Source: Clostridia bacterium
GTDB taxonomy: Bacteria > Bacillota > Clostridia > UMGS1840
Reading direction: 5' to 3'
Length of the DNA: 64,000 nucleotides
Assembly (NCBI GenBank): GCA_017468465.1
Contig: JAFUIN010000028.1
Location: forward strand, 1 to 64,000
Both the position numbers and the translations under genes were made by a program. The notes beneath the pieces are model-generated. The model was not told where the DNA came from, did not search any database, and was given only the letters and a program-made list of their open reading frames with translations. Below are positions 50,172-52,117 of the stretch, one piece after another (positions within the stretch are counted from its first letter, which is position 1; each line of letters opens with the position of its first letter).

Positions 50172-50792
50172 TTAATATTTTCTGCGAAAAATCTGCTTAA
50201 TGTTTTTTAGAAAATAAGCAATTTTTCCGACCAGATATACAATTTTTGCCGCGTTTTTCATGGCATATTTTTTTCCAGCTGCTTTGCCTCCTACTGTCAG
50301 CGCCGCAATCAGTGCTGAAAGCAAGCTCAAAAGCAGAAATTGCCCCAACTGAGCATTACCTTTTTCCAACAACTCCTGAAGCATCGCCACCAGGTATACC
50401 CCGATGGTAGCACCGGTAGCACCGCTGATAATGCCGGAAATATCCCCGATAACATCATTAAAAATACTGGTGGCTTTCTCGGCATTTTGCAGTAACGCCA
50501 ATGCTTCCTTGGCACCACTGATTTTTCGTGCCGCCATTGCATTGATGGTTTTTTCATCGGCTGTTGCAATGGCAATCCCCGCCATGTCGGCAATAATCCC
50601 TACCAGAATAATAAAGATCAGGACCAAAAGCGCCGGGAAAAAGTTCAAATTTTTGGATAATATATCTGCAAACATCCCCATAAAGAATGCAATGAAAAAG
50701 GTGATAACAGTAATTTTCACCGCCCAATTCATCGGCTTCTTTTTTGATTTTGATTTCGGGATATCTTCTTTTTCTGATTTATTTGATTCCAT
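50172..50792 (-). CDS. oapA: OLE-associated protein A (OapA)-like membrane protein
   Basis: 206 aa (about 22 kDa). After a Lys/Ser-rich start it has about four membrane segments (WAVKITVITFFIAFFMGMFA, FFPALLVLIFIILVGIIADM, the ISGIISGATGATIGVYLVAM region and FLLLSLLSALIAALTVGG). A DxxxD motif (NDVIGDISG) lies between. Size, topology, DxxxD and place next to a large structured RNA between ispA and dxs match OapA, the membrane partner of OLE RNA in Bacillus halodurans. Some annotations call such proteins CorB-like. The basic C-terminus (KKYAMKNAAK, IFRRKY) could contact RNA. Confidence 0.7.
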   Translation of the reverse strand: MESNKSEKEDIPKSKSKKKPMNWAVKITVITFFIAFFMGMFADILSKNLNFFPALLVLIFIILVGIIADMAGIAIATADEKTINAMAARKISGAKEALALLQNAEKATSIFNDVIGDISGIISGATGATIGVYLVAMLQELLEKGNAQLGQFLLLSLLSALIAALTVGGKAAGKKYAMKNAAKIVYLVGKIAYFLKNIKQIFRRKY

Positions 50793-50878
50793 AATTTTCT
50801 CCTGATGTAATCAAGACGGTTTGTCACAACCGCCGAGCCTGCAATATCATTTTTTTGATATCAAAGTGATTTTCCAAA

Positions 50879-51037
50879 ATTGTAAAATGTGATTGGACGT
50901 TTGTTTATCGTGGAATAAATTTTCTTGCAAGAGTGGGCGAAAAGCGCAGTGAATACTTGGTGTATTCACGAGCAGTTTCACACACTATGGCTGAAAATTT
51001 ATCCACGAGAAAGGAATGGACAATTACATTTTACAAT
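50879..51037. repeat. 159-bp near-palindromic element between OLE RNA and oapA
   Basis: The two ends are inverted copies: ATTGTAAAATGT at 50879-50890 and ACATTTTACAAT at 51026-51037. Pairing continues through CGTGGA(A)TAAATTTTC and TGAATAC/GTATTCA near the centre, giving an imperfect stem of about 75 bp. There is no ORF. It may be a MITE-type insertion or a dedicated RNA domain. Confidence 0.8.
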
Positions 51038-51630
51038 TTATAGTTAACCTGTGGCAGAACCGGAGTAAATTCTGCGGCTTAGGTCGAGTTGGATTTCCCG
51101 AAACACTACTCCTTGTCGCCAATGGAGCGATTTCTCTTGAAAGTGTTTCCAGTAAAGTTGCCTGTTTACTGCACTCGATCGCCACTGAGTCCGCACTGCA
51201 ATCCTCCGGTGCTGTTCTGTCTAGTGGTTTTCCCATACAACATTTGTACTATTTAATCCTGTTTTGCAAACAGAGTTTCAACCGGCGATAACATGTATCG
51301 GAGGGCCCTTCCGATAACATGTCTGATCCGAATCTCCCCTCATGTTCACTCAAGGCAAGCTACTCTGCACACAGCAATCAAACTGAATATCATACCGCAA
51401 TTGCAGGTTTAATCCTGAACCGTAGAAGGCAGCTTGTACCGATTAAGGTACAGAAATTGCCGACCACGAGGACAGGTCTCCACGGAAATAGGGTTTCGGC
51501 CACTATGCCATTAACGGCTGCCCCATAACCTTAACTCCCAGCATCCACCCCGGACTGGGCGTCCGAAGCAAACACAAGGAACTTCATCGATATGCTCTTT
51601 AGCGGATTTTTAGGCCCGCCTTCAATAATA
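51038..51630 (-). ncRNA. ole: OLE RNA (ornate large extremophilic RNA), approximate ends
   Basis: A gene-free stretch of about 600 nt in the minus direction lies upstream of oapA and downstream of ispA and the PAP2-like gene. That is the genomic site where OLE RNA is found in Bacillus and Clostridia, and the length fits (about 610 nt). Several stems are visible: TGTACC/GGTACA (51435-51452), ACATGT-ATCGGA/TCCGATAACATGT (51291-51322) and CTGTTT/AAACAG (51259-51273). No long ORF is likely. The 5' end is set near the GGCGGGCC at about 51620 and the 3' end at the palindromic element; both are estimates. Confidence 0.7.
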
Positions 51631-51670
51631 CATAGTTGACTAGAATACAGTGCCACAGTTTATTGAATCA

Positions 51671-52117
51671 TTATATGCTAAATAAAATACCAAGCAGAAT
51701 TCCGAGAATCGCACCGGCAAACACCTCCGGTTTGGTGTGCCCGATAAGCTCTTTTAGCTCCTGGTCTATATGAAATTCCTGTTTTTCAAACTTTTTGATA
51801 ATGCGATTGAGAATTTTGGCTTGCTCTCCCGCTGCTTTTCTGACACCGGCAGCATCATACATTACAATGATGGCAAGCACAAAGGTGACGGCAAACAAAG
51901 CAGAAGAAAAACCGGTCTGCACTCCTACACAAGTTGCAAGGGTGCAAACAGATGAGGAGTGAGAGCTGGGCATCCCACCGGAACCGATGCAACGGGTCCA
52001 ATCCCATTCTTTGTGCTCCAGGTAATGAAAAGGAATTTTCAAAAGCTGTGCCAATAAACAGGAAACCAGCGTTGCCCCCAATATTGTGTTGGAAAAAATT
52101 TCTCCGAATGGATGCAA
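51671..52117 (-). CDS. Divergent PAP2 family protein (DUF212)
   Basis: 148 aa from a TTG start (AGGAGG 8 nt upstream). GSGGMPSSHSSSVCTLATCV (about 46-65) carries the PAP2-like SxxxH motif; YDAAGVRKAAGEQAKILNRI is the second family block. Four membrane helices. Likely a lipid phosphatase or related enzyme; the exact substrate is unknown. Placed between ispA and the OLE RNA, a known neighbour. Confidence 0.92.
   Translation of the reverse strand: MHPFGEIFSNTILGATLVSCLLAQLLKIPFHYLEHKEWDWTRCIGSGGMPSSHSSSVCTLATCVGVQTGFSSALFAVTFVLAIIVMYDAAGVRKAAGEQAKILNRIIKKFEKQEFHIDQELKELIGHTKPEVFAGAILGILLGILFSI

Follow-up and report, generated by a model that had tools for sequence, protein, structure and literature searches.

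A palindrome between OLE RNA and oapA is very likely a copy of a dispersed MITE/BOX-like repeat family of Clostridia

The OLE-oapA locus and its palindrome

The DNA analyzed here, referred to below as the window, is a 64,000-nt stretch from a Clostridia bacterium (contig JAFUIN010000028.1, assembly GCA_017468465.1), whose minus strand carries, in this order, OLE RNA, a palindrome, oapA, and dxs. The features of the locus are listed below.

51035..51672, minus strand: OLE RNA (RF01071), model positions 1-616 complete, 428.7 bits, E 1.5e-122
50877..51039, minus strand: palindromic element, one full-length unit, identified by repeat search and folding, at the same place in 5/5 genomes of the genus
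51026..51039, minus strand: outer inverted-repeat end beside OLE (AAATTGTAAAATGT on the minus strand), with AATTGTAAAAT invariant in 5/5 species
50877..50890, minus strand: outer inverted-repeat end on the oapA side, with ATTTTACAA invariant in 5/5 species
50911..51002, minus strand: conserved core of the family, about 92 nt (model R1), 85.2 bits, E 2.1e-13
50951..50972, minus strand: core motif CTCGTGAATACACCAAGTATTC, central hairpin with a covarying 8-bp stem
50793..50876, minus strand: linker to oapA, poorly conserved between species (genome G000 versus the other four of the genus, 0.44-0.51 identity over 25-86 aligned bases)
50172..50792, minus strand: oapA, 206 aa, with a homologue after OLE in 29/29 OLE loci

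The only Rfam match in the window was OLE, and none was found at the palindrome, either at the gathering score or with E up to 1. The 206-aa ORF (50172-50792) had no match in Pfam or NCBIfam and was named oapA because of its position, as a homologous ORF comes after OLE in all 29 OLE loci, the window's own included. A preliminary description of this DNA had placed an imperfect palindrome of 159 bp with 12-bp perfect ends between OLE and oapA; the palindrome is real and slightly longer (163 bp, 50877-51039), and its perfect outer stretch reaches 14 bp (AAATTGTAAAATGT / ACATTTTACAATTT). Its arms, delimited by a repeat search at 50877-50922 and 50994-51039, are 78% complementary. It abuts the 3' end of OLE, overlapping the last 5 nt of the OLE match. 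When folded as RNA, the plus strand reached -73.9 kcal/mol (z -11.6) and the minus strand, which is the sense strand of OLE and oapA, -59 kcal/mol (z -10.3), with 0 of 200 shuffles as good in either case. A terminator scan of the window predicted no terminator inside the palindrome, the sense strand included. Between 49900 and 52300, sigma-70-like promoter matches numbered 11 versus 4.3 expected, and one of them, on the plus strand (antisense to OLE), is situated shortly before the palindrome (50821-50850).

A dispersed family with a conserved core and exchangeable ends

The core of the palindrome, represented by a 92-position model, was found in 61 of 391 Clostridia genomes in a class scan that scored the best 11 candidates per genome, so that copy numbers are floors, and in 3 of 398 genomes of a phylum sample, all three belonging to the window's class. 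Twelve genomes outside the window's genus, which were reached through core-bearing loci, held 3 to 39 core copies each. The exact core motif was present in 88 stretches among 84,980 genomes, compared with about 0.5 expected from simple arithmetic, with many of these stretches concentrated in a handful of genomes from uncultured Oscillospiraceae and Ruminococcus. Of these, 83 copies at 80 loci were examined; copies obtained with the exact pattern are biased towards that core. Seven exact matches to an 18-base core pattern in viral contigs were dismissed as unrelated sequences without the rest of the core. The preliminary description had proposed a search for other copies, and relatives do have them, as the class scan indicates, but the window's own genome has a single one: neither a DNA search nor the core model revealed a second copy there, and the central motif occurs exactly once. 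A known RNA family was rejected as the identity of the element, with no Rfam match at the element in the window or in 16 element-bearing loci; elsewhere in one of the latter (L185) there was a sub-threshold match to RT-17 (28.5 bits versus 40.4 needed). No published description of the family was found by words or core strings, in a search that covered mainly papers outside subscription journals.

Pairing within the core was assessed in 44 model-found copies, some of which are among the 37 copies, mostly core-pattern finds, from which the model had been built. The proposed pairs hold in 85.9% of cells, and 14 of the 22 pairs show both-side changes (96 cells), whereas sliding the partner gave no more than 9 such pairs and 26 cells. 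The central 8-bp stem is paired in 95.4% of cells, with 6 of its 8 pairs covarying, and a short internal loop (CTC / CTSCG in sense) is nearly invariant while the neighbouring stem varies; on the other strand, where the loop reads CGSAG / CGAG, two G-A pairs are possible. The core hairpin is flanked by an A tract and a T tract (171 of 176 A-T cells), the T tract being separated from the 8-bp stem by the conserved internal loop. These tracts would suit a bidirectional hairpin similar to an intrinsic terminator, like the pneumococcal SPRITE, that sets read-through from OLE to oapA, and the element does sit in sense after a gene at both of its sites in the window's genus, i.e. behind OLE and behind tpiA (see below). 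We nevertheless doubt this explanation, because the internal loop that parts the T tract from the stem is itself conserved and the window palindrome contains no terminator-like match.

The two strands of the element are not equivalent. The strand antisense to OLE folds better in 5/5 copies at the OLE site and in 2/2 complete copies at the tpiA site, and of 66 copies outside the genus, 57 likewise fold better as the opposite strand, by a median of 12 kcal/mol. On the modelled strand of the core, A-C mismatches (42) outnumber G-U pairs (16), and on the OLE-sense strand at the OLE site there are 6 G-U pairs versus 8 A-C mismatches. As G-U is not commoner than A-C on the latter strand, the pairing gives no hint of selection in the OLE-oapA transcript. 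Should selection act on a single strand as a folded molecule, the better folding and the excess of A-C over G-U suggest that this is the strand antisense to OLE in the window.

Outside the genus, the core is surrounded by elements whose two ends match each other and which measure 159-298 bp in the 31 copies whose ends were recognised. The two well sampled end-types, GGCAAyACCGCACAAAG and GGTTCGGGTGTCAAAAGTC, are wholly unlike. Exact 4-bp border repeats accompany 7 of the 15 copies with the first end-type (shuffled mean 1.23, maximum 5 in 500) and exact 6-bp border repeats 5 of the 13 copies with the second (shuffled mean 0.74, maximum 4 in 500), while a third end-type showed target duplications in 0 of 3 copies. 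Borders were set at the GG...CC ends, and the test covered 31 of the 83 copies, namely those whose ends matched patterns written after the copies had been viewed, the rest being uncounted. In one genome (G391), ends of the first (4-bp) type number 180 versus 18 cores, and several short forms without the core hairpin share such ends (L218-L224), so the ends seem sufficient for spread. This 2.6-Mb genome has about 180 ends of the GGCAAnnCCGCACAAAG type. Several pairs of that type at L218-L225 and L228, mostly in genome G398, are short palindromes of about 50-120 bp that lack the core hairpin and constitute a large nested MITE population.

A search for the two known end-types and for the end of the window copy around 7 DDE_Tnp_1 (PF01609) and 12 Y1_Tnp (PF01797) loci found none. 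Reading of the translations revealed no transposase in a 3.3-kb stretch between two opposite ends (L217), whose ORFs appeared by eye to be response-regulator-like and membrane-protein-like. In genome G399, one core copy (L238 1271-1356, C130; 42 bits) has a Y1 (IS200-like) transposase gene, matched in two pieces, at a distance of about 150 bp; the element of this core has yet another end, and with 39 copies in that genome the vicinity of the transposase was taken as coincidence rather than partnership.

Around 40 intergenic copies, the neighbouring genes were oriented ++ in 16, -- in 13, +- in 6, and -+ in 5 cases (background 74, 66, 45, and 47), which gives no clear orientation bias; 18 more copies lay inside crudely called ORFs, three loci of the genus were excluded, and copies not flanked by an ORF on each side were dropped. 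In G005, a genome of the window's order, the element seems longer (about 250 bp, L209-L212) and has additional hairpins in its right arm, and in some of these copies the central stem is altered on both sides.

Dispersed copies, target duplications, and ends that seem sufficient for spread are MITE behaviour, and we conclude with high confidence that the window palindrome is a copy of a dispersed, palindromic, non-coding MITE/BOX-like family of Clostridia, about 160-300 bp in length. The MITE insertion put forward in the preliminary description accordingly stands for the family, with its dispersed copies, inverted-repeat ends, and target duplications, but finds no local counterpart, with one copy in the genome and no target duplication at this site.

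Conservation and copy-number turnover at the OLE site

OLE was found in 29 of 60 genomes searched, the window's own included. In all five genomes of the window's genus (G000-G004) the palindrome stands directly after OLE, whereas a search of the 24 OLE loci from other genera with the core model gave no match with E under 0.1 (17.3 bits and E 0.57 for the best one), and at most of these loci an ORF homologous to oapA begins within a few dozen bases of OLE. This distribution, together with the covariation presented below, supports the other option of the preliminary description, i.e. an addition specific to the lineage, and the two options are not exclusive. The description had also reasoned that a single-copy palindrome conserved with OLE in all relatives would belong to the RNA, and no such conservation was seen outside the genus; a conserved OLE domain was therefore rejected (missing from 24/24 loci).

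The number of units at the OLE site is one in G000 and G002, two in G001 and G003, and three in G004, with a tandem spacing of 155 bp in G001, 201 bp in G003, and 159 and 159 bp in G004. The repeated unit comprises the core and the right arm together in all three species with tandem arrays. The single G002 unit agrees with the second unit of G001 at 109 of 112 bases in its right half but is more similar in its left half to the first unit (71/88) than to the second (61/88), as expected from the loss of one unit by recombination. Related strains without the element and a target duplication at the site, both proposed as checks of the insertion, were not encountered: the five genomes of the genus offered no clean empty site, and inspection of the borders by eye in the five species detected no recognisable direct repeat. 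The insertion at the OLE site is old. In G003 (L029/L044, C19), the tandem array and oapA are separated by an additional ORF of about 126 aa that, judged by eye, resembles a membrane protein.

A narrower version of the RNA-domain idea is that the palindrome forms a lineage-specific 3' domain of OLE RNA and is part of the OLE particle. It would agree with the position of the palindrome, which in the window starts no more than 5 nt from the 3' end of OLE, with its presence and kept pairing in 5/5 genomes of the genus, and with the 3'-end processing of OLE in H. halodurans (PMC11332333). We regard it as improbable, since the palindrome is absent from all 24 OLE loci outside the genus, its unit number varies between 1 and 3, the same core occurs at unrelated sites in many genomes, and the sense strand is the weaker folder.

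Both sequence and pairing of the element at OLE are kept well beyond neutral divergence. Between species of the genus, the first unit is 0.69-0.86 identical, compared with 0.30-0.49 at the four-fold sites of oapA (63-77 sites per pair); the corresponding range for OLE is 0.85-0.92. For the linker that follows the array, identity is 0.44-0.51 in comparisons of G000 with the other species and 0.48-0.72 in the remaining pairs, except for G001-G002 (0.93). Across the five species, 94.0% of pair cells are kept in the OLE-site unit and 19 of 60 pairs show both-side changes (shuffled mean 9.2; slid at most 4), the structure having been derived from the same five sequences that were used to score its pairs. 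A lack of covariation, which the preliminary description had named as an argument against its reading, was thus not observed. As identity far above that of four-fold sites together with kept pairing is not expected of copies left to drift, these sequence comparisons indicate that the element at OLE is probably under constraint.

The second site in the genus lies behind tpiA, a gene named from its translated end, where the same core within wholly different arms is found in three species (L205, L206, and L207, i.e. G002 C14, G003 C6, and G004 C63). Its copies in G002 and G003 are 0.94 identical, versus 0.64 at the four-fold sites of tpiA, and two matches at contig ends in G004 look like one copy. 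In G000 (L251) the core behind tpiA is missing, and a small ATCTGATG...CATCAGA palindrome that resembles the right end of the element remains, which makes a loss as likely as an absence; in G001, whose genome is 77% complete, the tpiA region was not found.

The mobility of the family, the missing tpiA-site copy in G000, and compensatory changes with few G-U steps (6 G-U among 299 cells) would all be compatible with a neutral relic, that is, a single insertion without function, in which template switching keeps the arms paired and slippage changes the number of tandem units. Some of the compensatory changes could have arisen when template switching corrected the DNA palindrome. Such self-correction, however, preserves pairing and not the sequence shared between species, and the unit is far more similar than the four-fold sites of oapA or the linker, which is near 0.5 against G000. 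We therefore consider a functionless relic rather unlikely, and the copy at OLE looks retained by selection.

Proposed role and relation to known systems

On balance, we favour the explanation that the palindrome is an old mobile one, which the genus now keeps as a barrier that folds between OLE and oapA. The element is built around a hairpin core, conserved and covarying, that is set within inverted-repeat ends of an exchangeable kind. It would have reached the OLE-oapA junction in the ancestor of the genus; it has been kept there since, and its core and right arm were duplicated in tandem in some species to give one to three units. The palindrome at the oapA side of OLE is probably co-transcribed with OLE, and we infer that it may now serve as a folded intercistronic barrier separating the two. 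Such a barrier would most likely attenuate or cut the transcript, which would generate the 3' end of OLE and lower the amount of oapA made; the cleavage or attenuation would become stronger with tandem units. In H. halodurans, OLE RNA undergoes processing of its 3' end (PMC11332333), and RNase III can cleave MITE hairpins located in transcripts (PMC10969869), which would make cleavage or attenuation between OLE and oapA the simplest role. We propose this mechanism tentatively, as it is weakened by the poorer folding of the sense strand (5/5), the lack of a G-U excess, and the lack of a terminator in the palindrome; a function of the opposite strand, or one exerted as DNA, is also conceivable. 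The poorer folding of the sense strand and the lack of a predicted terminator bear equally on the suggestion of the preliminary description that a strong hairpin in the shared transcript could affect oapA expression.

A bolder version, to which we give little credence at present, would make the domesticated mobile repeat a working, tandemly adjustable OLE-oapA part responsible for forming the OLE 3' end and for setting the OLE:OapA ratio, possibly also via a structured transcript of the opposite strand. More broadly, the strand-specific covarying core inside several unrelated transposon ends would be a selfish module of Clostridia, made of structured RNA or single-strand DNA. Whatever its role, a palindromic repeat family that is abundant in gut Clostridia and apparently undescribed gains a described and searchable identity, and a mobile hairpin between OLE RNA and its partner gene oapA represents a natural experiment: as the number of hairpins varies between species, an effect on OLE processing or oapA dosage is testable.

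The element resembles several repeats known from other bacteria. Like the BOX elements of Streptococcus (PMC3049150), it is a short composite repeat with fixed ends and a central module in variable tandem number, and in S. suis different end types (boxA/C, boxE/F) likewise surround the same boxB (PMC3049150). Unlike in BOX, the core and the right arm repeat together here and the host class is another one, the likeness being one of architecture. With MITEs such as the Correia elements (CREE) of Neisseria it shares its non-coding nature, inverted-repeat ends, dispersal, and target duplications (PMC10969869, PMC2649163), but it differs from them in that (i) a single conserved core is combined with several end types that are unrelated and differ in duplication length, (ii) no partner transposase was found, and (iii) the window's genome has a single copy. 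The pneumococcal SPRITE, a repeat similar to a rho-independent terminator, is also dispersed and has a terminator-like hairpin (PMC3049150), whereas the palindrome described here is much longer and has A/T tracts on both sides of its core. In relation to OLE RNA (RF01071), the palindrome is directly adjacent and on the same strand, but lies outside the Rfam model and is absent from the OLE loci of other genera; it is ordinary in kind and unusual in place.
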